The notes under the pieces were generated by a model. That model was not told the DNA's origin, did no database searches, and was given only the letters and a program-made list of their open reading frames with translations. A program made the translations under genes and the position numbers. Positions 1-50,067 of a DNA stretch of 50,067 nt are shown in pieces. Each line of letters begins with the position of its first letter. Positions within the stretch are counted from its first letter, which is position 1. Source of the DNA: a virus; the IMG/VR virus record IMGVR_UViG_3300044691_000458, positions 1 to 50,067 of that record; one strand, written 5' to 3'.

Positions 1-126
1 TCATCACCAAATTGCGCTTGCCCTATAGCCATAGCCGACCCAAACTCAGTATTAACAATTGTTAAGGCTTGTCCTGGGTATGCTTCTTCTAGTCCATAAC
101 TTGTATTGAACTTCATTCTAACAGCT
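1..126. repeat. Contig-end direct overlap (copy 1), identical to 49934-50059
   Basis: Bases 1-126 are identical to 49934-50059, with the portal frame continuing through. This shows a circular map of 49,933 bp, or a terminally redundant or permuted phage; it is an assembly overlap rather than a biological repeat. Confidence 0.9.
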
Positions 127-2761: not shown

Positions 2762-3205
2762 TTATTCTGCGTGGCAATAACCACTAATCTTCCCATTGGA
2801 GACCGTATTATGTGTATATACGACTCTTGCCCAATGTGCACTTAGATCTCTTATCTTGATATAATCTATTCCGTCACTAGACATTATTCTAAAAGTCGCT
2901 CCGGGTATATCAATCCAATTAGAGGGTGTATTGGATACTTGAACTTTAACGACAGCATCAAGATATGGAAATGCAGCCCAGTCTTTTTCTGTATAGGTGG
3001 TTAAATCATTCCATGAAATTAAAACGGACAACCGCCTTAATCTTGATATATCAAAGGGTTTCCCAAATGCTCCAAGATCTGTAGAATTCCAATCATAGCC
3101 AGCTGTCAGCTCTCTGAAAAATTTGCAATCTCTAGCTTTGATCACCTCACCAAAAGCTTGAAAGGGGAGGAATAAAATAGGCAAAAGCAGTATTTTTTTG
3201 ATCAT
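2762..3205 (-). CDS. Secreted protein, tandem paralogue 1 (147 aa)
   Basis: Exported protein of unknown role, paralogous to 2298-2741. I choose ATG 3205 (MIKKILLLPILFLPFQAFGE), which gives a normal signal peptide cut after AFG; the longer frame from 3325 would bury it and overlap the divergent gene. GGAG on the minus strand at 3220-3217 lies 11 bases upstream and belongs to a palindrome that also serves the plus-strand gene at 3225. Conserved features with its paralogue include ARDCKFF, GAFG.PFDIS, DAVVKVQVS, WARVVYT and CHA. The beta-rich, Trp-containing sequence could be a small binding domain, but I cannot name it. Confidence 0.75.
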   Translation of the reverse strand: MIKKILLLPILFLPFQAFGEVIKARDCKFFRELTAGYDWNSTDLGAFGKPFDISRLRRLSVLISWNDLTTYTEKDWAAFPYLDAVVKVQVSNTPSNWIDIPGATFRIMSSDGIDYIKIRDLSAHWARVVYTHNTVSNGKISGYCHAE

Positions 3206-3212
3206 TGTAAAA

Positions 3213-3220
3213 GGAGCTCC
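3213..3220. promoter_or_regulatory. Palindromic Shine-Dalgarno GGAGCTCC shared by divergent genes
   Basis: The perfect palindrome GGAGCTCC sits between start codons facing away from each other. On the plus strand GGAG ends 8 bases before ATG 3225; on the minus strand GGAG ends 11 bases before ATG 3205. Only 19 bp separate the two start codons, so neither gene has room for its own promoter in the gap. Confidence 0.6.
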
Positions 3221-3224
3221 AGAC

Positions 3225-3491
3225 ATGGACAGGAATCGCGTCATAGACAAATTCATTGAGATTGCCATCGGCCTAGCACTTACAAGTACTGTAGCAGTTT
3301 TAAGTGGACTTCGGAAGGATATCAATCAACTAAATGACACAATGATAACCGTCGTTCAAAGGCTTGCATTGTACGAACAAAGTTTTGTGGAGCTGAGGCA
3401 GGAGGTCAAAGACTCTTCCAAAGACTTGGATAGTCGTGTTAGAATTCTTGAGATCGCAATGTCATCCAATCAAAAGGGAAAAATTAAATGA
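3225..3491 (+). CDS. Small membrane protein with coiled coil, holin-like or XhlA-like (88 aa)
   Basis: Plus-strand gene embedded in the minus-strand late operon. ATG 3225 is chosen because AAGGAG lies 8 bases upstream; the longer frame from 3198 has no such site. It has one membrane segment near residues 10-26 (IEIAIGLALTSTVAVLSGL), then a charged coiled-coil helix to the end. Small phage proteins with one membrane helix and a coiled coil include holin-associated (XhlA-like) proteins, but the order here is membrane first. It overlaps the next gene by 4 bp (ATGA), so the two are co-translated. It could be a lysis accessory or membrane anchor; unproven. Confidence 0.7.
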   Translation: MDRNRVIDKFIEIAIGLALTSTVAVLSGLRKDINQLNDTMITVVQRLALYEQSFVELRQEVKDSSKDLDSRVRILEIAMSSNQKGKIK

Positions 3492-4458: not shown

Positions 4459-5379
4459 TCATTGATAACCTAATCTTGACCCGACTAAAAAATCAAGTCC
4501 CGGTGTTCTGAAGTCACCAGCGTCCGGTGTTTCCCATAAGCCACAACGTTGATGCCGGTATTCCCATTCATCGAATTTAAATTTTTGTAGCCACTCATTT
4601 ATATCTCCTCTGCCGCAATAGTGGTCAACCGTTGGCATTTGAGTCTCACGTGTGACGTCACAAAAATTATTCTTCACAATATTAGGCCATGTCTCACCCA
4701 AACTCTCTACGGTTTTTAGAGCAAGAAAACCGAGATGAATTCGAAAGCATGACTTCTTAGCTACGATGGTTGCCCGTGACCACTCACCAATTTCTAATCC
4801 TAAGAGAAGCTTAACATCGTCTGTAGGCTTTGTTCTTAGGTCAAGCTTATGTGCGAGTAGCTGAAGAACGTAATCGAAAAACTTCTCGAGTTTAGAATCA
4901 GACTTAGGGTTTAAATGTAAATCATGTTCGTCTACATATTTTAAATTTAATCTAATAGCCTCTTTCCAAGCATCTCGAGATCCTGGACACCTAGCAATTC
5001 TATCGGCTACTCCAAAGTAGAGACCCATGGCGCCGTCTAAGTTCCCGTCATCAGCAGCAAGTGTAGGATGTCTCATGAGAGTACCATTAGTTGAAACGAT
5101 CTCGTCTATAAGCTGCCTCTCGATTGCATCGCCCATCTCACACGAGAGACCGTATAGAGCAATACCAGACCAGATAAGAGAATCTCCAGCATTCGCAGGC
5201 TCACCATTCTTTCCTCTGCTAACGACACGATTATGATCAAGGAATTCATTAACGAGGCGTGTTGAGGCATCATGGTATAAATCCTTTTCAGATTTTGTTA
5301 TAGGTTGTGCAGCTTCTTCTTTATCCGGTTCGCCGCAAACCGTTAAACAAAAGAAAAATAAAACGTGAATAAGTTTCAT
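4459..5379 (-). CDS. Predicted lipoprotein, 306 aa
   Basis: The N-terminus MKLIHVLFFFCLTVC followed by GEP has a lipobox (LTVC), so it should be lipid-modified and anchored in the host envelope. The mature protein is helical with several cysteines and repeated acidic and Trp residues; the stretch DGNLDGAMGLYFGVADRIARC recalls helical-barrel enzymes but I cannot assign one. It lies at the distal end of the tail-fibre genes. A phage lipoprotein expressed late could block receptors or secondary infection, as known for other phages; that is inference. Confidence 0.7.
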   Translation of the reverse strand: MKLIHVLFFFCLTVCGEPDKEEAAQPITKSEKDLYHDASTRLVNEFLDHNRVVSRGKNGEPANAGDSLIWSGIALYGLSCEMGDAIERQLIDEIVSTNGTLMRHPTLAADDGNLDGAMGLYFGVADRIARCPGSRDAWKEAIRLNLKYVDEHDLHLNPKSDSKLEKFFDYVLQLLAHKLDLRTKPTDDVKLLLGLEIGEWSRATIVAKKSCFRIHLGFLALKTVESLGETWPNIVKNNFCDVTRETQMPTVDHYCGRGDINEWLQKFKFDEWEYRHQRCGLWETPDAGDFRTPGLDFLVGSRLGYQ

Positions 5380-5771: not shown

Positions 5772-8171
5772 CTAGCTTCCTGTCCCGACGTAATAAGTAA
5801 TTACGGTATCTTGATTTGCCCCTGCTGTTGCTGAGTTCGTCCAAGCTGTCCCAATCATATCCCTTCTGATTGTTATGATACCCGTGTTGCTAATATCCCA
5901 ACGTCCAGGAGTTGCGCTGATTGTGTTATTATCCTTCATTGCTGGTATAAATCCCGATGCAATGGTTGACTGGATCGGTCTTGCGAAAGCATCTAGAGCT
6001 GTATTTGAAGTGAGTGTAGTACTTGATGTCCCGGTTGTCCCTTGAACAGAGTTCATATAAATTGTGACGAAATCACCCAATCTCTGATAGCGAAGAGTTA
6101 CTGATGGCGAAGTCCCACCTGCACCGTTGAATGTAAACGTAGTTGCTGTAGAGCTCGTGTAAGTGTTCACTAACCCTAATGATCCATCGGTTGTTTTTCC
6201 AAAACCAATAGCAACGCCACCAGCTACTTTTCTAACGCGCCACTTAGTAGTGCTTAAACTTGCCCATGTATTGTAATTACCAGCAGTGCCTGATGCATAA
6301 ATTCCTGTATTCGAAGCCCCAGAGGCAGCAAATTTAACATCAACATCCGTTGAATTTACAAAAGCTAAGAAAACACCGACAGAGTTTCCACCATTATATC
6401 CAAAAGATTGGATATTATTACCATCTTGTTCTGGAGTAAGCCATGGCCCTGTCCCTGCTATTTGGAATTCGAGAAATAATTTATCAGTTTGTTGAATCGG
6501 TGTTTGAAATCGTACTCTATAGTTTTGAACACTTGTTCCAAGTGATTGTGTAACACTTGGAACCCCACCACCAGCAGGACCATAGGCAAAAGATGTGGTA
6601 TCTCCACCTGTCGCAGTATTGGAATTATAAGCATATTCAGTGTCATTTTGAGCTACGTTAACCGTTCCTGAACCAGCCCATTCCGCAATTGGAATTCTAC
6701 ATCTAAATACAATGTGGGAAGTGTTGCTAAAAACTGATCCGGCATTTATTTTAGCGTAGGCATTAGATGCTGATGTATATGAGAAATATATATTTGCTGT
6801 ATCTGATCCATCGTAGATAATAAGACCGTTATTGCCACCAACAGCAAAAAAGTTAGAGGAACCTGCTGTCTGAATTTGTTCCCAATCACCAATCCCTTGG
6901 CCTGACGCATGTGATGAAAGAGCAGCGGAGTTTATAGTATAACCTGTTGGCATAGCAATCTTTGAAATACTAGCAGCTACTGTCCCAGCTTGAAATCTTC
7001 CTTGCACTACCATGTACTCGCCTACACGCTGCATCTCATATAAACCGTTTGATACAGTTCCAAAAGCTGCAGATGCTGGTGTAAATGTAACTGACGTTAC
7101 TGGCCCTACAACTGCCCCTTGAGGCTGTATACCCGGCCCAACTACAACGTTTCCAATAACTAGTGCAGTCGTTCCTGCTACTCCGGTTATATCTAACTCA
7201 TAAAAGTTGGATGTATCTGTATCAAAGGTTGTTGTGAATTTACCGTCCATATTAGGAATACCGGACACACCCGAGGAATCAGTTGACAAAGCTAGAGCTG
7301 TGTACGTTCCACCATATGATGATGTCGAGTTCGTTCGAACTTGAACCTTCAAATCCCCTGATGCATAGCCTGATAGAGCGTGTTGATACCACTCTACTTT
7401 TAACTTACGGTTTTTTAAAGAGGTGGGCATTGTCCATCTATAATAGACAGAATTGGTTCCACTTGCTCTTGTAATCTTGATTGCAGAACCGATATTTTGA
7501 CCTAATACGCCCGAAACAGAGTTCCCAAGTGGTAAGTCGGAAGTTGTGGTTGTTGTGGCTACAGTTATGTTTGCGCCTGAATACCAGTTAGCAGCGTCGT
7601 TAGGGTTGGATATTAAGTTAATCTCTGGAGCTGTATATGTTCTACTGTCGGTAGCCTTACCCAAAAAGAATTGATCCAAATAGATAACGGTTGCCGAAGC
7701 GGCAGCAGATACACAAATCTTTAACGAGCCACTAGACGGAATAGCAAAAGATATTTCATCGTTTGCATAGTTTGTCGATGTGGTGATTAAGTGCTGACCA
7801 ATTACGTTACTTGATCCGTCTTGAACCGACCATGAATAGTTGGTAGCATCCCCACCTTTGTACATGAGCGCAGCTTTACCGATAGCGCCATATAAACCGG
7901 TTGGAATAGTATAGGCCGCTGAGCAAAATGTTTGCGCGCCTGTAGGGGTCCATGAAGCTGAAGTGCTTCCGTAACCGATGTTTGAAGATGTGTCGAGGGC
8001 AAATGTCCCACCGACTGTCCATCTAGCCTTGCCGGATTCGAATCCTGGGTTCTCAAGAAGGTTGATAGTTCTCATCTCGCTTTGTTGAGCCATGGAGAAT
8101 GAAGACCCAGTCAGAGCATATGAAGGATACGCAATTAAGTATGAAAGAATAAAACAAAGAAATTTTTTCAT
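5772..8171 (-). CDS. Large adhesin or tail fibre with a signal peptide and carbohydrate-binding-like N-terminus (799 aa)
   Basis: Likely receptor-binding or surface protein. It starts with a convincing Sec signal peptide (MKKFLCFILSYLIAYPSYALT), strange for a virion part. Residues ~35-175 (NLLENPGFESGKARW ... IYLDQFFLG) look like a galactose-binding/CBM-type beta-sandwich often found in phage tail proteins, and a second similar segment follows (~185-345, NLISNPNDAANWY ...). The remaining ~450 residues are low-charge, Gly/Ser/Thr-rich beta repeats typical of fibres. It starts one base after the stop of the preceding fibre gene. Either the virion protein has a signal-like hydrophobic anchor, or it is exported from the infected cell. 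Confidence 0.75.
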   Translation of the reverse strand: MKKFLCFILSYLIAYPSYALTGSSFSMAQQSEMRTINLLENPGFESGKARWTVGGTFALDTSSNIGYGSTSASWTPTGAQTFCSAAYTIPTGLYGAIGKAALMYKGGDATNYSWSVQDGSSNVIGQHLITTSTNYANDEISFAIPSSGSLKICVSAAASATVIYLDQFFLGKATDSRTYTAPEINLISNPNDAANWYSGANITVATTTTTSDLPLGNSVSGVLGQNIGSAIKITRASGTNSVYYRWTMPTSLKNRKLKVEWYQHALSGYASGDLKVQVRTNSTSSYGGTYTALALSTDSSGVSGIPNMDGKFTTTFDTDTSNFYELDITGVAGTTALVIGNVVVGPGIQPQGAVVGPVTSVTFTPASAAFGTVSNGLYEMQRVGEYMVVQGRFQAGTVAASISKIAMPTGYTINSAALSSHASGQGIGDWEQIQTAGSSNFFAVGGNNGLIIYDGSDTANIYFSYTSASNAYAKINAGSVFSNTSHIVFRCRIPIAEWAGSGTVNVAQNDTEYAYNSNTATGGDTTSFAYGPAGGGVPSVTQSLGTSVQNYRVRFQTPIQQTDKLFLEFQIAGTGPWLTPEQDGNNIQSFGYNGGNSVGVFLAFVNSTDVDVKFAASGASNTGIYASGTAGNYNTWASLSTTKWRVRKVAGGVAIGFGKTTDGSLGLVNTYTSSTATTFTFNGAGGTSPSVTLRYQRLGDFVTIYMNSVQGTTGTSSTTLTSNTALDAFARPIQSTIASGFIPAMKDNNTISATPGRWDISNTGIITIRRDMIGTAWTNSATAGANQDTVITYYVGTGS

Positions 8172-8172
8172 G

Positions 8173-10113
8173 TTATGAGAACCTCACTGAAGTTGCAGAT
8201 GGAAGAAAGGACACGTCAGCCGTGTCGGTATCAGTTGCATAATTCCTTGTGATCTTTACTCGTAGAAGATCGCCGGCAGCTATAGCAACACTGTTGATCG
8301 TGCCTGTTGAGCTTGATAGGTCAAGCGTAGTACTGCGATACATGTTAGCCACAGTATTTGTGAGAGCTGAATTAGTAGATGAATAACTATTAGTAGTAGC
8401 TGATAGAGCAGTACTGTTCTTCGCAAACAGATAGGTAGTCGCAACGAGCAGAATGGTGTTCGATGCACTAGCTGAATAGAGTCCGATATCCATATTGATT
8501 TGAGAGCCTGCCACATATCCATTAGGGACTTTTACATAGATATCTAATTCAGCATCGATCGCATCTGGAAACAAATAAACTTTTTCGCTGAACTGTTCAC
8601 TTAGTAAAGCACCCACACCCGATGGAGCGTTCCATGTCCCAGAGCTTCCACCTCCACCACCGCTGCCAACAACATTGTAATTCGTTCCATCACCAACGTA
8701 GAGAGTCTTAAGATCGGTTGCCCATACTAACATACCCGATGTTTTTGTCAGACCATCGAGATTGGTCTTCGTGTCCTTAGGAATGTAGAAACGATTTGTG
8801 GCTGATGCTGTCCCTCCATCATAAATTTTGTTTGTGATGGTAGCTGCTATCGAATCACCTAAAATTGTGCATGTAGCTATCGGCATAGTCCAAATAGCCG
8901 CAACGGTCATCCCAACTGCAGGACGTCTAAACGTTCCCAACCAGTCGGCACCTGAGCTAGCCGTTGCATTGTTCAACACAAGATCACTTGAATCGGTTTT
9001 CAAGGTGAGAGAAGACATGAGGCCCGCTACTCTAACCGTTGAGGATGTACCACCGAGCGTTAAAGTATTTGCTCCGATGGAAGCGCCGACAGACACAGCA
9101 CCAGCAGCCCAATCTATAGCGCCCGACGCAGCTAGAGTGATTGAAGCCACCACAGTGAGAGTTTTATTAGATAAGGTTTCAGCAAGTGCAAGAGAGGCCA
9201 AAGTCGCAGTCGCAAGGGGCATAGTCCAGACGGCGGCACCTGTCATGCCGGAGGATGGTCTTCTAATCGTTCCTAGCCAATCCGCTGCGGACCCAGCTGC
9301 CCCACTGTTCAGCACTAGGTCATTTGAATCAGTCTTAAGAGTTAAAGCAGACATGAGGCCAGCAACTCGAACGGTTGACGATGCACCCCCAATAGTCATG
9401 GTGTTAGCACCGATAGAGGCACCCAATGCTACGTTACCAGCTGCCCAGTCAATGGCACCCGATGCGACTAGAGTAATAGAGGCAGCTAAAGTTAACGTCT
9501 TATTTGATAGGGTTTCAGCTAGCGCAAGGGTAGCTATAGTCGACGTAGCCGTCGGCATCGTCCATATAGCAGCAGCAGACATGCCCGAAGATGGACGCCT
9601 AATCGTACCTTTCCAATCGGTTGTTGAGCCAGCGGCATCATAATTAAGAACAAGGTCGTTTCCATCGGCTCTTAATTCAGCTGCTTCGATGTTACCCGTT
9701 GTGACAATGCTACAGTTTGCATCGAAATCGGAAGAGGTAACATTGTAACGGTATCCAATAACATAAATTAGAAATGTCTTAGAACCACCCGAAACATTTT
9801 GAACCGATATAATTGATGTACTTGTCTGAGTGATGGTATAAGCAGCGACAATTTGAGCCTCTGTTAACTGTACTCCACTCTCAAATATAATGATTTTAAG
9901 CTTACCAATAGCTAGACCAAAATTGTGTGTCACAGCTTGAGAGGCTGAATTGGCTAACGTGTATGTGAAATACCTTCCTAACAAATGGTCAGAAAACTGT
10001 GTGAACATTGTGGACAAAGCAAGATGCAATGCAGTCCCACCGTCCAGAGTATCAAACCCTAAGTCGGGATCAGCAACTGCTAGCCTACCTCTACTTGTAG
10101 TAGTCTGCGACAT
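8173..10113 (-). CDS. Tail fibre protein with internal ~112-residue tandem repeats (646 aa)
   Basis: The gene starts in a TAATG overlap with its upstream neighbour. Residues 1-140 are a soluble head domain (QAVTHNFGLAIGKLKI... resembles fibre attachment domains). Residues ~181-404 hold two nearly identical ~112-residue units beginning AAIWTMP or AAVWTMP and including LALAETLSNKTLT, ASGAIDWAAG, GASIGANT, STVRVAGLMS and DLVLN; a third unit diverges after its start. The C-terminal ~130 residues begin after a Gly-rich hinge (SGGGGGSSG) and may be the receptor-binding tip. No signal peptide. Confidence 0.82.
   Translation of the reverse strand: MSQTTTSRGRLAVADPDLGFDTLDGGTALHLALSTMFTQFSDHLLGRYFTYTLANSASQAVTHNFGLAIGKLKIIIFESGVQLTEAQIVAAYTITQTSTSIISVQNVSGGSKTFLIYVIGYRYNVTSSDFDANCSIVTTGNIEAAELRADGNDLVLNYDAAGSTTDWKGTIRRPSSGMSAAAIWTMPTATSTIATLALAETLSNKTLTLAASITLVASGAIDWAAGNVALGASIGANTMTIGGASSTVRVAGLMSALTLKTDSNDLVLNSGAAGSAADWLGTIRRPSSGMTGAAVWTMPLATATLASLALAETLSNKTLTVVASITLAASGAIDWAAGAVSVGASIGANTLTLGGTSSTVRVAGLMSSLTLKTDSSDLVLNNATASSGADWLGTFRRPAVGMTVAAIWTMPIATCTILGDSIAATITNKIYDGGTASATNRFYIPKDTKTNLDGLTKTSGMLVWATDLKTLYVGDGTNYNVVGSGGGGGSSGTWNAPSGVGALLSEQFSEKVYLFPDAIDAELDIYVKVPNGYVAGSQINMDIGLYSASASNTILLVATTYLFAKNSTALSATTNSYSSTNSALTNTVANMYRSTTLDLSSSTGTINSVAIAAGDLLRVKITRNYATDTDTADVSFLPSATSVRFS
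8902..9573 (-). repeat. Two tandem 336-bp coding repeats in the tail fibre
   Basis: Unit 1 covers about 9573-9238 and unit 2 about 9237-8902, each encoding 112 residues beginning A-A-(I/V)-W-T-M-P. The protein copies are highly similar while the DNA has diverged at many third positions, so the repeat is old or selected at protein level. Such repeats can change fibre length by recombination. Confidence 0.75.
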
Positions 10114-25630: not shown

Positions 25631-25668
25631 GTACTATGTAAGTGAGGTTGATAAACAACGGGGGATTT

Positions 25669-26412
25669 ATGAAAAAGCTTTTAATGATACCACTAATCTT
25701 GATCGGATGTGGACAGCAACCAGCGGCAGCCCCTAGCACACAAGCCGCAGCAGTAACAACTACAACATCGACAGTAGCAAGTTTCGGGGCTCAGTTAGTT
25801 AAAGATAAAAAAGAATTCGAATGTACTGATAAAAATAATGGTCAACTTATATATGATCAATCGACAAAAGGTTTCTTTTATTGCAACACAGATAACTGGG
25901 TTTCAATAGATTTAGCTGGCAAAGATGGTAAAGACGGAACTAATGGGATCGATGGTGTTGCTGGTGTTAACGGTAAAGATGGAACTGATGGTGCTACAGG
26001 AACCGGAATCGCTGGCACAAATGGAACCGATGGTAAAAATGGAATTGATGGCAAAGATGGTACTAATGGCACAAACGGTATTGACGGGCAAAAAGGATCA
26101 GCTGCTTTTGCTTTTGACTGGACTGATACAGTGACTGGCAAATCATGGCTCATTAAAGGTTGGGACATATTAACCTCAGGTGCCACATGCGGATACGAAT
26201 ACCACACCCCTACAGAAGCCGAAGCAAGGGCAGCTGTGACAGATGGTCTTTTAGATTCAGGTGCCCCTAAAATTATATTGACTACAAAATTATTTGTATC
26301 ACAAAATAATTATGTGTTTCAATGGCTAGACGCTAGCGATGAAACAAACATGATTTTAAAAACAATGACAATTGATAGTCCACAAATGGTTGGCGTTTAT
26401 TGTGTTAAATAA
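25669..26412 (+). CDS. Collagen-like lipoprotein, 247 aa
   Basis: Surface lipoprotein. ATG 25669 with GGGG upstream gives MKKLLMIPLILIGC (lipobox LIGC). After a Thr/Ala-rich linker and a small domain with Cys pairs (FECTDK, FFYCNT), residues ~93-150 are Gly-X-Y triplets (GKDGKDGTNGID... GQKG), then a C-terminal globular domain with two cysteines (ATCGYEY, GVYCVK). Lipoprotein plus collagen-like stalk plus head makes a trimeric fibre-like surface projection plausible. Driven by FliA promoter 4. Collagen-like repeats also occur in phage fibres, but the lipobox argues for the host envelope. Confidence 0.8.
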   Translation: MKKLLMIPLILIGCGQQPAAAPSTQAAAVTTTTSTVASFGAQLVKDKKEFECTDKNNGQLIYDQSTKGFFYCNTDNWVSIDLAGKDGKDGTNGIDGVAGVNGKDGTDGATGTGIAGTNGTDGKNGIDGKDGTNGTNGIDGQKGSAAFAFDWTDTVTGKSWLIKGWDILTSGATCGYEYHTPTEAEARAAVTDGLLDSGAPKIILTTKLFVSQNNYVFQWLDASDETNMILKTMTIDSPQMVGVYCVK

Positions 26413-42163: not shown

Positions 42164-42361
42164 ATGGCCGTTACCTTAGTCAGGCTTTTACTTTACGATA
42201 TCGGTTTCACAGACCCCAAGATATTAGATGAATTTGAAGCAAAAATATTAGAAGAGTTAAAAAAAATGCCCGCTAGTGAAGCGGGCGAGGAACCTTTAGA
42301 GGTAACTCATAGTGATAGCGTCGAGCCCACCACTAGTAGTAGCCATTGCTGGCCCCTCTAA
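42164..42361 (+). CDS. Small plus-strand protein overlapping the major tail gene end, 65 aa
   Basis: ATG 42164 (MAVTLVRLLLYDIGFTDPKI) with AAGGAG 9 bases upstream. A helix-rich start then an acidic, Ser/Thr-rich tail that runs 66 bp into the antisense end of the major tail gene and over its terminator. The good ribosome site supports it; the overlap argues against. AAGGAG is part of TCCTTTTAAGGA, whose other strand serves the 42133 gene. Confidence 0.4.
   Translation: MAVTLVRLLLYDIGFTDPKILDEFEAKILEELKKMPASEAGEEPLEVTHSDSVEPTTSSSHCWPL
42259..42286 (-). terminator. Intrinsic terminator of the late operon
   Basis: On the minus strand GCCCGC, loop TTCACTA, GCGGGC, then A and eight Ts, placed 9 bp after the major tail protein stop. 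A textbook terminator ending the long minus-strand operon that begins at terS. Confidence 0.85.
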
Positions 42362-43894
42362 GGTCATTGTTATGTGTCCTTTGTCTGGAATTTCGATTGC
42401 CGGGATCTTGAAGAACACTCTAGGGAAAACCCAAGTGATGTGTCGTCCACTTGCCGACCCTAGAACAATCTTTACAGATGAGGTTTGAAATTCTTTAGCT
42501 CTAACAATTTGATTAGCTTGTTGTGCACTTAAGACAACATCAAGCTTAATGTTAATGTCTGAGCGATCAGAGATTGAATAACCGCGATTAGTATTAAAGC
42601 CGTACCAGTCATCGAAACTTTCAATCTTAGGATCGAATTTCAATTCTACGGTTTTGATTTCGTCGATTGTGGTAGCTCCACCATCAAGTGAAACAGTTCC
42701 AGTTAAACCGGTTAATGGGTTATCTGTACCTGTTTGATCGAATACGTGAGGCATCCAAGGAACTAGAAAGCCAAGATCGGCAACAGTAACCGTCGTTGAT
42801 AGGACAACGGTATCAGAGCCGTCTGTCCTACTAGCCACAGTTAAGGAACCATCTTGACCAGCTACCACTGTCCGTCCGTCTGGACTAACAACCATAACAT
42901 AAGCGCCGATATCGAATCTTGTAGATTCACCAGCTGTGAGAATGACTGTAGCAGATGCAGCAACTGCACCGCTGATCTTTGACACAGAAGCATAGAGACC
43001 GTCACGAGCCTTGATAGGCAAGGTCATTTTGGCTTCACCGCTGCCGGGAAGTGCAAAAGTTCCTTGTGTCACATAACAACCGTTAAAGTAACGAGCGAAT
43101 GTATTGTTACCTTGTACCATTGTGTAAAACTTAGATTGCGGAGCCCCACTATCGAAACGAATTTCTGAACTTCCGACTGTCGTTTTTACACCAAATAGAC
43201 CAGTAAGAAGAGAAGCCATTGGGGTATCTAGAGTAGGAGATCCACCGGATGCAACGTTGAAATAAGCTTGTATTTCCCCGTCTGCCATCTTCTTTTTCTT
43301 GATGATGTTAAAGCTTTGGCGGCCTGACTTATGCTCAGACGGTTGAATGTCTTGAGTCATTTTCAAACTAGCTTTAGTAGCGTAAAGAAAATCACCACCA
43401 ACTGTACCAACGACTTCAACGCCGGTGTTAGCAAGACCGATTTTAAGGTCCACGGAAACGTCGTTAGAGACACCAGCTGTAACAACAACGCTAGAAAGAA
43501 GACCTGTCTTCTGACTTTTGATTGTATAGATAGTTGAAAAAGCAACCCACACGCGAGCGTCGTAACCAGCTGTGCTCAACGCTGTATTGATTCCTGTTTC
43601 CATAGCTGCCGCAATCAACACCCCAGATGATAAACCCGCTACAGTTAAAGAAACGCTTACGATGCCAAGACCGTCGACGTTAATCTTAAAAGTAGTATTA
43701 GTTCCACCTGATAAATCAATCGAAGGGGAAGAGGCAGAAGCCGAAGACCCTTGAGTCCCAATCCCTGGAGCTAAGAACGTTCCAGCTGTTACTTCTTCTT
43801 TAAGGTGAATAAAGTTTTCGATACCGATAGCAATTCCCTGCTTATAAGAAGCGTAGGAAGTTGCAAAGTTTTGTGATGAGCGAAATTTAGCCAT
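42296..43894 (-). CDS. Major tail (tube) protein with an inserted domain, 532 aa
   Basis: Builds the tail tube. The beginning (residues 1-50) and the part from ~168 (FLYATKASLKMTQDIQPSEHK...) to the end match the general layout of siphovirus tube proteins (GIENFIHLKEEVTAGT; SSEIRFDSGAPQSKFYTMVQ; LDVVLSAQQANQIVRAKEF). Residues ~56-165 (SPSIDLSGGTNTTFKINVDG ... GVEVVGTVGG) form an extra ~110-residue domain shared with the secreted protein encoded just upstream. Near the C-terminus a beta domain (ITMTLEGPAMA) closes the barrel. Last gene of the late operon. Confidence 0.82.
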   Translation of the reverse strand: MAKFRSSQNFATSYASYKQGIAIGIENFIHLKEEVTAGTFLAPGIGTQGSSASASSPSIDLSGGTNTTFKINVDGLGIVSVSLTVAGLSSGVLIAAAMETGINTALSTAGYDARVWVAFSTIYTIKSQKTGLLSSVVVTAGVSNDVSVDLKIGLANTGVEVVGTVGGDFLYATKASLKMTQDIQPSEHKSGRQSFNIIKKKKMADGEIQAYFNVASGGSPTLDTPMASLLTGLFGVKTTVGSSEIRFDSGAPQSKFYTMVQGNNTFARYFNGCYVTQGTFALPGSGEAKMTLPIKARDGLYASVSKISGAVAASATVILTAGESTRFDIGAYVMVVSPDGRTVVAGQDGSLTVASRTDGSDTVVLSTTVTVADLGFLVPWMPHVFDQTGTDNPLTGLTGTVSLDGGATTIDEIKTVELKFDPKIESFDDWYGFNTNRGYSISDRSDINIKLDVVLSAQQANQIVRAKEFQTSSVKIVLGSASGRHITWVFPRVFFKIPAIEIPDKGHITMTLEGPAMATTSGGLDAITMSYL

Positions 43895-43908
43895 GTGCTA
43901 CTACCTCT

Positions 43909-45306
43909 TTAATTTTGTAGGGTAACTGTATGGTAACGGATTCTGTATTTAACGATGTTCGCAACGTTACCATTGGTAAAGTTACTTGCTTGAAATTGAA
44001 CTGGCTTATTAGCGTTTAGAGTTACGTCGAACCCAGTTGCCGAGCCTGTTGCACCGTCTAAAGCGTAAGAAGAAGGCTTGATAATCTTGTTGCTACTAGC
44101 TGTATCAGTAACAAAAGTACTGTCGACTAGAGTGATATTATCGCCTGTAGTTCCGTATTCAACAGCAAGGTCTGAACCTGTCGCATAAGCTGCTGTGCTG
44201 TATGTGTGAAGCAATTCTACTTCATCTACAATGTGTACTGTACCAGCTCCACCAGCAGCGATTGCAGAAATTGGGGTACCAATTGCTTGCAACTGAGCTT
44301 GTGTAAGTGTGCCCGTCACTTCTTTCATAACTGGAGCAGCTAAATCAGCAACTACAACACTACTAGTTAAGTTCAATTTGCTATAAGAAACGGCAGCTGA
44401 AGAACTGATGTCAGCGTTTGCAATGGTTCCCGGAGCATAGATTTGTGCATCTGTGATAGTTGCGTTGATTGTTGGGCCTGTGCAGCTCAAAGCGTTTGAA
44501 GCTATTTGTCTAACAACTGCTGTGCTTGGTAAAGCCAAAGAACAAGCGGTGTAACCACTGTTTCCGATAGCTGTAGAGCCGACGGTTGTTTTAGCTGAAA
44601 CGTTGCTTTCGCAAAGAGCCAATCCTTTAATACCAGCAACTTCAACACCTGAATTAGTAACACCAATCTTTAAATTATCGGCTACGTTCAAGCTTAAACC
44701 ATCTGTAACAACAACACTAGAACGAGCTCCTAGAAGTCTGCTTGTGATTGTGTACAAAGTTCCGTAAACAACGTCGACGCGAGCCCCTTGATTAGCTGCT
44801 GCTAGTGCCGAGTTGATTTGTGAGGTTAAACCTGTAGCAATTGCAGCACCTGAACTTAAACCGGTTAAAGTCAAAGTGACAGACACAGCCGGATTTCCAT
44901 CGACAGCGATTTTAAAATTCGTGTCCGAGCCTCCACTAATGTCTGTGGAAGGGGAAGTATTTGAAACGCTGGTTGCATATGTATTCCCATAGCCAGCGTA
45001 CAGGTAGACCGTCGTATCAGAGGCACTCCCCCACATGGTGTTACAAACACCTTGAGTTAAATTGATGTCTTTAGTTACATCGTACATGGTTCCAGAGATG
45101 TCTAGGGAACCGTAATTAGAAGAGGACAAAGCCGAACCGTTAAACGAAGTAAGCTTGAAAACAGTCGCTGAATTCTTAACAACTTTAAGATTCCAAAACG
45201 CTTTCTTGTTCAAAGATATAGCATCTTTGTTTTGGGGTTCAAGTTTTACACCGTAAGCAGCCGACGTCATTAACACGGTTAACAATAAAGCTAAAAAATT
45301 TCTCAC
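43909..45306 (-). CDS. Secreted protein sharing a domain with the tail tube (465 aa)
   Basis: Signal peptide MRNFLALLLTVLMTSAAYGV, so the product should leave the cytoplasm, although the gene lies between the tail terminator and the tail tube gene. Residues ~119-226 (SPSTDISGGSDTNFKIAVDG ... VTNSGVEVAGI) are clearly related to residues ~56-165 of the tube protein. Later parts are Ala/Ser/Thr-rich beta repeats (LTSSVVVADLAAPVMKEVTG). Possible roles: decoy or mimic of the tube domain, envelope decoration, or a virion protein with an unusual leader. Confidence 0.72.
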   Translation of the reverse strand: MRNFLALLLTVLMTSAAYGVKLEPQNKDAISLNKKAFWNLKVVKNSATVFKLTSFNGSALSSSNYGSLDISGTMYDVTKDINLTQGVCNTMWGSASDTTVYLYAGYGNTYATSVSNTSPSTDISGGSDTNFKIAVDGNPAVSVTLTLTGLSSGAAIATGLTSQINSALAAANQGARVDVVYGTLYTITSRLLGARSSVVVTDGLSLNVADNLKIGVTNSGVEVAGIKGLALCESNVSAKTTVGSTAIGNSGYTACSLALPSTAVVRQIASNALSCTGPTINATITDAQIYAPGTIANADISSSAAVSYSKLNLTSSVVVADLAAPVMKEVTGTLTQAQLQAIGTPISAIAAGGAGTVHIVDEVELLHTYSTAAYATGSDLAVEYGTTGDNITLVDSTFVTDTASSNKIIKPSSYALDGATGSATGFDVTLNANKPVQFQASNFTNGNVANIVKYRIRYHTVTLQN

Positions 45307-45328
45307 TGGGATCCTCCTTAAAATAAAA

Positions 45329-45799
45329 TCATCCGGTGTAAGTCTTTCTTAGACTAGTCAACCGTAAACGCATTACGTAAGTTCTATTCGCTTCCACTAG
45401 ATTTAAATCACCTCGACAATTAAGAAGATTAATGGATTGTACAACCCCTCCGAGTGTAATTCCACTATTACCGGTGGCATTAGCAGACCCACCAAATAGA
45501 CACTTTATAATGTCGGACTTAAAGTCTTCCATCATTCCGTCGGTCCATTCTTTAGGAGCCACTAAAAAAAGAATGACCGTTAGCTCAGACCAATAAGAGG
45601 CCGACGCACCTTCATGATTGTATGAATCTTCCTCGCTTACAATCTCAATAAGTGGCAGGTCTGTTTCTGGAGTGTTCAATGTCATTTCAGCGATACTATA
45701 AATAATTCTTCTCACGGTTACTGAATAACCAATCGTCGTGCTTATAGTGGCTAACTGATCTTTTAGGGCTTCGATGATTAGTCTTCCACGGCTACTCAA
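45329..45799 (-). CDS. Tail terminator protein, 156 aa
   Basis: Caps the tail tube for joining to the head. I choose TTG 45799, since GGAGG lies 6 bases upstream (45810-45806); the first ATG in the frame (45826) lies inside the upstream gene. Protein start: MSSRGRLIIEALKDQLATIS. Mixed alpha/beta with the typical start (helix, then YSVTVRRIIYS), DLPLIEIVSEED and a final strand (RTYVMRLRLTSL), as in gpU-like or tail terminator proteins. Gene order (after the gp10-like protein) supports it. Confidence 0.72.
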   Translation of the reverse strand: MSSRGRLIIEALKDQLATISTTIGYSVTVRRIIYSIAEMTLNTPETDLPLIEIVSEEDSYNHEGASASYWSELTVILFLVAPKEWTDGMMEDFKSDIIKCLFGGSANATGNSGITLGGVVQSINLLNCRGDLNLVEANRTYVMRLRLTSLRKTYTG

Positions 45800-46406
45800 T
45801 GATGACCTCCGCTTGCAAAGGTGCAAAAGATGCCATAAGAGCCACCTTCACCTTTTCATTTGTTTGCATGGCATCAATAGCCGGTTGTATATACGGACGG
45901 GGTTTTATCTCTACATGTTTTCGTAACGCGTAGGCTGCAATACCCATTCTAGTCATTAAAACAAGACCCCATTGCGGATCGGTTCCCATAATCAAATCGA
46001 ATTCCCGAGCTCTATGGCCTCTAAAATCAGATGAGATAGGGATTGTTAAATACTTAGATCTCTTTGGGTATATGTGCATCCCCCACTCTTGAGCTGCTGC
46101 GTACGGGACACCCACTCCCCCCACCGTTACGCTTAAGCCGTCCCCAGAACCTTCGATTTGAACCGATCGATAAAGAGCCCCGCTTCGGCCTTGAGTAGCA
46201 GCGGTTCCGCCCATACTTGCACGTGTTAAAGGGCTTCTATCCGACCGATCCCCACCAAAAGTATTTAGAATATTTTGCTGAATATTTGACTGTAAGCCTT
46301 GAGCAATTTCGAGCTGAAACTGCATCATAGATTTCAATGTCTTATCGCGGACTATTTTCAAGTCCTGCATGAAATTATGGATAGTTGTTTCAGTCGCTGT
46401 CGCCAT
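45792..46406 (-). CDS. Tail completion / head closure protein (HK97 gp10-like), 204 aa
   Basis: Joins head and tail. The central motif VPYAAAQEWGMHIYPKRSKY and the ending KPRPYIQPAIDAMQ are typical of gp10-like/virion morphogenesis proteins (PYA..xEfG ... PRPFlxPAl). It begins 3 bp after the connector stop and overlaps the tail terminator start. Confidence 0.8.
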   Translation of the reverse strand: MATATETTIHNFMQDLKIVRDKTLKSMMQFQLEIAQGLQSNIQQNILNTFGGDRSDRSPLTRASMGGTAATQGRSGALYRSVQIEGSGDGLSVTVGGVGVPYAAAQEWGMHIYPKRSKYLTIPISSDFRGHRAREFDLIMGTDPQWGLVLMTRMGIAAYALRKHVEIKPRPYIQPAIDAMQTNEKVKVALMASFAPLQAEVIIE

Positions 46407-49696: not shown

Positions 49697-50059
49697 CAGT
49701 CATTCCAAGTTACAGGGCTGTATTGAATTGTACAACGACAATTTATGACCTCTTTAGCCTCACCTATAGGATCTTTAGGATATCTTAAATTGTTATTAAA
49801 AAGCTCATCCATAACGCCATCGCTATCCCCGGTGATATCGAAGCCATCTAGTTCCAAATGGGAGTCGCGAGTATGCCCGTCGTCGCCCATAGATATCCAA
49901 GTTTTAGTCATTTCTTTAGTGACTGAAGCCAAATCATCACCAAATTGCGCTTGCCCTATAGCCATAGCCGACCCAAACTCAGTATTAACAATTGTTAAGG
50001 CTTGTCCTGGGTATGCTTCTTCTAGTCCATAACTTGTATTGAACTTCATTCTAACAGCT
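49696..50059 (-). CDS. Portal-MuF fusion, C-terminal part across the seam
   Basis: This is the end of the frame that starts at 1949. It holds the MuF-like domain: TKTWISMGDDGHTRDSHLELDG, RYPKDPIG and EVINCRCTIQYSPVTW. The internal ATG near 50049 (MKFNTSYGLEEAYPG) is probably not a gene start; the frame is open upstream through base 1 after circularisation. The stop overlaps the protease start. Confidence 0.85.
49934..50059. repeat. Contig-end direct overlap (copy 2), identical to 1-126
   Basis: See copy 1. The identity stops at 50059, where the true sequence should continue as in base 127, but the window continues with adapter sequence. Confidence 0.9.
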
Positions 50060-50067
50060 AGATCGGA
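50060..50067. other. Sequencing adapter remnant (agatcgga)
   Basis: These eight bases differ from the expected continuation (bases 127-134) and match the first eight bases of the common Illumina adapter (AGATCGGAAGAGC). Confidence 0.85.

Follow-up and report, generated by a model that had tools for sequence, protein, structure and literature searches.

A domain shared by a phage tail tube protein and its exported neighbour, with a possible role in competing with the tail

Accessory domains are common on phage tails, and their roles are mostly guessed. Those described include the Ig-like and other accessory domains of YSD1 and of multi-domain sheath proteins; for accessory tail domains, weak adhesion or stability is usually proposed (PMC7385642, PMC9230969). 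The domain reported here resembles these in being an addition to a tail building block, outside its conserved core, and differs from them in its long helix packed with strands and in having a second copy on an exported protein. It also recalls the accessory domain of DUF3383 tail sheath proteins (E217 gp31): three of 11 domain members have hits to the Pfam DUF3383 model (best 1e-5), and one carrier (L031) is sheath-like. Neither copy studied here matches any Pfam model, and their carriers are a non-contractile tube protein and an exported protein rather than a contractile sheath; L031 is the only sheath-like carrier. The tube protein itself is of the T5 and P74-26 type, from which it departs in sequence (~9-13% identity only) and in its inserted domain.

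A second set of comparisons concerns phage proteins that leave the cytoplasm. T4 spackle reportedly acts inside the envelope, on the baseplate lysozyme of an incoming phage. T5 Llp, an exported phage protein, abolishes binding at the FhuA receptor, and a further proposal is that exclusion proteins keep phages from futile adsorption to debris (PMC9586334). By analogy, the exported protein described below has an export signal and could act against adsorption or entry; it has no lipobox and no recognised sequence relation to either precedent, and it differs from them in being encoded in a structural cluster and in bearing a tail domain. A four-cysteine core found in exported proteins of related phages shares its fold with small beta-sandwich proteins (BFVD; many of 86-100 aa) of uncultured tailed phages; a signal peptide and four invariant cysteines set the exported family apart from these.

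The DNA analysed is virus record IMGVR_UViG_3300044691_000458, referred to over its full length of 50,067 nt as the window. Features of the locus are collected in Table 1.

Table 1. Features of the tube locus and its exported neighbour
Feature	Position	Strand	Description or basis
Record IMGVR_UViG_3300044691_000458	1-50,067		virus DNA, 50,067 nt
Tail tube protein, T5/P74-26 type	42296..43894	-	532 aa; Foldseek, Phage_tube_2 sub-threshold, 19 relatives
Shared domain of tube protein	43397..43738	-	residues 53-166, between N-terminal strands and remaining tube fold
Exported neighbour	43909..45306	-	465 aa, GTG start; ORF
C-terminal part of exported neighbour	43912..44409	-	residues 300-465; begins with fibre-like NADISSSAAVSYSKL stretch
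Shared domain of exported protein	44623..44964	-	residues 115-228
Predicted signal peptide MRNFLALLLTVLMTSAAYG	45250..45306	-	Sec pattern by rule-based test; lipobox cysteine absent
Shine-Dalgarno AAGGAGG	45313..45319	-	well spaced before GTG at 45306
Tail-terminator-like gene bounding slot	45329..45826	-	by position and size; weak match phrog_5185 (unknown function)

The shared domain and its carriers

An initial annotation of this DNA had proposed that the tube protein and its upstream neighbour contain the same ~110-residue domain, and this was borne out. BLASTP aligned the two proteins with 67 of 128 positions identical (52%) and one gap (117 bits, E=1e-32; 107 bits and E=2e-29 after composition adjustment), and the local score of 294 lies far above that of the shuffled domain region (47.1 +/- 7.9, maximum 75 in 500 shuffles). 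By profile, each copy spans 114 residues. In an AlphaFold model built from 20 aligned tube sequences, the tube copy is compact (pLDDT ~94, compared with a mean of 83 for the whole tube model). Its predicted elements are strands at residues 68-73 and 79-82, an 18-residue helix at 91-108 and strands at 115-119, 123-130 and 136-140. Low complexity, which the annotation had offered as the alternative source of the common pattern, is ruled out by the shuffles, the modelled fold and ~40 relatives. An Ig-like domain was also considered and rejected: the helix has strands on both sides, and the model shows no all-beta Ig sandwich. At invariant positions Gly, Ser, Asn and hydrophobic residues predominate, and no sugar-binding site is visible. 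The DNA of the two copies is only ~68% identical over the best 158 bp, indicating that they are old and not the product of a fresh duplication. No third copy was detected in the window record.

The assignment of one carrier as the tail tube protein, also made in that annotation, agrees with structural comparison. Foldseek places the AlphaFold model among T5/P74-26-type tubes, with matches to the SH-Ab15497 major tail protein (E=1.3e-11), the P74-26 tube (E=1.4e-10) and the T5 tube (E=8.4e-9); across tube and tail-tip proteins of SH-Ab15497, P74-26, T5 and DT57C, values range from E=1.3e-11 to 6e-6. The match to Pfam Phage_tube_2 (25.5 bits) falls below the cut-off of 27. Nineteen relatives align end to end with the tube protein; a search of named phages gave none. 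The 20 aligned tube proteins all carry the domain at the identical site, after a PRIGTQG stretch and before a FLLYTTGG stretch, and this fixed insertion site argues that the domain is old in the clade. Foldseek matches of the tube model also include the E217 and Pa193 sheaths and FliD, which are suggestive for the domain and not more, because the output gives no query range. A second well-modelled all-beta region, at tube residues ~305-380 (42755-42982), is conserved in the clade (VMxVxxDGRTILAGxDGSL) and is possibly another insert.

The neighbour had been annotated as carrying a Sec signal peptide. This appears credible from its sequence features, given the strong Shine-Dalgarno at the GTG and the signal-peptide genes found likewise in the corresponding position of 14 contigs (next section). 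The surroundings of the likely cleavage site read TSAAYG/VK, and the lipobox of T5 Llp-like lipoproteins is absent. The protein has no significant Pfam or PHROG family. For its body and C-terminal part, searches of phages (best E=0.4) and of the related contigs examined returned no significant relatives.

Domain loci in viral contigs numbered six in a first profile scan and 31 in a second, and 42 copies, including further loci, were placed in a tree; the collection scans use short patterns, which miss distant relatives. The ~40 phage proteins found to carry the domain comprise tube, sheath-like, connector-like, terminator-like and fibre-like proteins, the last three roles being assigned from sequence reading and weak PHROG matches. 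One contig carries it in a different long tube-like protein, inserted near residue 250 (L006), and another in a tube paralogue that scores 23.6 bits against Phage_tail_2, just below the cut-off of 23.8 (L003). The sheath-like carrier of L031 matches solved sheaths; the alignment of its second half to residues 152-222 of solved sheath 7kh1 is weak. The connector-like carrier is in L041, the terminator-like one in L043 and the fibre-like ones in L027-L030, L032-L034, L036, L037, L039 and L004. Judged by these sequence matches, the domain is a promiscuous, horizontally spread virion module, probably akin to a sheath domain and unnamed in the libraries searched. A single-pattern search of GTDB genome contigs gave no bacterial relatives, and the only hit for the domain among named phages was a Methanosarcinales virus. 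In that archaeal virus (vir525, L004) the domain lies in a fibre-like protein at 7389-8708, and a 935-residue protein of another contig contains it twice (L042, 5395-8202).

Because such modules are general among phage virion proteins, neighbouring copies alone do not imply mutual binding, and the interaction that the annotation had thought possible does not follow from adjacency. Its idea that the exported copy could decorate the tube or saturate a surface target is not supported as stated either, and nor is local duplication. The window's exported copy is most similar to the tube domain of L008, with 59% identity against 54% to the tube copy of its own genome. In the tree, the exported copies of the window and of L007 are placed apart among tube copies, with low support. 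AU tests rejected none of three groupings: the window copies together (p=0.54), the L007 copies together (p=0.39) and both exported copies together (p=0.42). A recent local duplication was set aside on the weak DNA similarity and a tree that does not resolve the matter; that the exported copies derived by duplication from a tube gene, at whatever time, is plausible.

Exported proteins beside the tube gene in related phages

Directly upstream of the tube gene, 14 related contigs encode one to three small proteins with predicted signal peptides (L007, L008, L014, L018, L021, L022, L024, L045, L046, L047, L048, L051, L052 and L053, of which L047 and L048 are near-identical). The order of terminator-like gene, slot and tube gene is the same in the related contigs, and the window's exported gene occupies this slot, lying between the terminator-like and tube genes and bearing a predicted signal peptide. 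Exported proteins in the terminator-tube slot are thus a recurrent feature of the clade. The slot is empty of exported genes in at least six further clade phages with the tube domain, and in G017 (L054), where it is also empty, an exported pair is found close to other late genes, at a distance of ~22 kb from the tube gene. We found no earlier description of a recurrent slot of exported, cysteine-rich, virion-like proteins beside the tube gene.

The four cysteines of the exported family in these relatives are invariant, which fits an oxidising compartment. The mature part of their four-cysteine core is modelled with a pLDDT of ~97 and has 55 matches at E<=0.001 to small beta-sandwich proteins of tailed phages (best query TM-score ~0.6). 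Relatives of the core were absent from GTDB genome contigs and from named phages. Bacillus Ena pili and cupins were considered as kin and rejected, the similarity being weak (E=0.002, TM ~0.46). The exported protein of the window also has four cysteines (88, 232, 255 and 275), in a pattern that differs from that of the family; since the core profile does not match it at E<0.01, we left it outside the family. In L007 the core profile does match, and the shared domain separates the two core halves. In exported paralogues of ~240 residues a different insert precedes the core, with a weak match in one of them to tail sheath phrog_165 (E=0.0017). Tail-type domains therefore recur on exported proteins, with the shared domain in the window and in L007 and another insert in the ~240-residue paralogues.

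All signal peptides were called by a simple rule-based test, passed by 28 of 28 exported proteins (27 of relatives plus that of the window) when any start near the N-terminus was allowed, and by 11 of 600 shuffled sequences, for which a single start was considered. Fibre-like and small sandwich late proteins of relatives pass the rule as well; the signal peptide of the G009 fibre is uncertain, because its start may lie downstream of the hydrophobic segment. Members of one small sandwich family bear a signal peptide in G003, G009, G010 and G017 and lack it in G004 and G011, the G011 member being ~40% identical to the others over the common part. The same family forms the C-terminal domain of neighbouring late proteins and is distantly related to the four-cysteine core (hhalign 92%, E=7e-7). 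Its occurrence with and without a signal peptide points to gain or loss of such peptides among the virion-type proteins of this group.

From these observations we raise the possibility, in our view a doubtful one, that siphophages of this clade route virion-type modules (four-cysteine sandwiches, tail-domain carriers and fibre-like proteins) through Sec. Folding and disulfide formation would then take place outside the cytoplasm, and the products would go on to coat the envelope or, once the cell has lysed, to join virions, amounting to an extracytoplasmic branch of tail assembly or to an exported decoy kit. A literature search for virion proteins with signal peptides found nothing fitting, which is weak evidence of absence. 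Fibre proteins of Bdellovibrio were weighed as a parallel and set aside. Should the exported proteins end on virions, tailed-phage assembly would be more than cytoplasmic; should they not, they would form a new group of envelope-acting phage proteins.

Possible roles of the exported copy

The anatomy described above, that of a virion module inserted in the tube protein and found again behind an export signal, is very probably correct. For its function, our best guess among several is that the exported copy is a competitor of the tail domain, a role that we advance with rather low confidence. Module anatomy and competitor role taken as one explanation make a tentative account, somewhat less likely than not. 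The role is suggested by the shared surface and, through analogy, by precedents such as T5 Llp. Tail and exported protein would present the same surface in different places: tube copies would face outward and stud the outside of the tail, and the exported copy, accumulating in the periplasm during late infection, would be released together with the virions at lysis. It could then compete for the envelope component touched by the tail domain, which would either keep progeny from adhering to the cell that produced them and to its remains or exclude a second phage. The presence of the same domain on the tail and on a separately exported protein makes its binding testable without the virion.

Several observations count against a competitor. 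The invariant residues of the domain form no visible sugar-binding site. The exported protein has neither a lipobox nor a recognised outer-membrane anchor, which leaves a route to the surface before lysis unexplained. Exported genes are missing from the slot of the clade phages noted above despite their tube domain, and the G017 pair is distant. In addition, the existence of a virion-type family with and without signal peptides would fit a virion role equally well.

That virion role is the main rival, although we consider it doubtful. The protein would be a late-attaching appendage that is exported to form disulfides, waits in the periplasm and binds tails at lysis through the shared domain or its fibre-like part. 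The position of the exported genes within the structural cluster is consistent with late attachment, as are the tailed-phage proteins matched in structure by the four-cysteine core, the relation of that core to the sandwich family and the signal peptides on fibre-like late proteins. Against it, tailed phages assemble in the cytoplasm, and the body of the window's exported protein is not placed in the four-cysteine family from which part of this evidence is drawn.

Neutral module shuffling, in which the domain recombined into a nearby gene without acquiring any role linked to that of the tube domain, seems unlikely. It would be in keeping with a promiscuous domain, with an exported body that has no relatives and with a tree that neither supports nor rejects local duplication. 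Retention of 52% protein identity with one gap, against the ~68% identity of the DNA in its best stretch, instead suggests selection at the protein level, and in L007 this slot holds another exported protein that bears the domain.

We think it less likely still that the protein is a periplasmic exclusion factor, binding the incoming tail inside the envelope, possibly domain to domain. The export signal and shared domain would suit this role and T4 spackle offers a precedent, but the location of the gene in a structural cluster suggests late expression, the tube domain should remain outside the cell, and there is no sign that the domain binds itself.

Least probable by some way is an ordinary minor tail protein whose N-terminal hydrophobic segment is no secretion signal; the simplicity of the signal-peptide rule and the gene's place among tail genes speak for it, and the 28 of 28 exported proteins passing at any near-N-terminal start (against the 11 of 600 shuffles at one start), the ribosome-binding site at the GTG and the cysteines conserved in relatives speak against it.

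Genome ends and other late proteins of the window

The first 126 bases of the window recur at 49934-50059 and are followed there by AGATCGGA, which resembles a sequencing-adapter remnant (window 1-126, 49934-50067). Despite its classification as linear, the record probably represents a complete genome of ~49,933 bp, either circular or terminally redundant. Terminase matches fall across many hosts.

Three other late proteins of the window pass the signal-peptide rule. Two, at 2298-2753 and 2762-3325, are tandem paralogues among the late genes (RDCKFF..LTAG). The third, at 5772-8171, is a fibre-like protein of 799 residues that directly follows a fibre-like protein at 8173-10113 without a signal peptide. 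A lipoprotein-like protein (LTVC) is encoded at 4459-5379, and lipoprotein-like late proteins of similar size occur in G003, G009, G010, G011, G016 and G017. At 25642-26412, a lipoprotein signal is followed by collagen-like glycine repeats.
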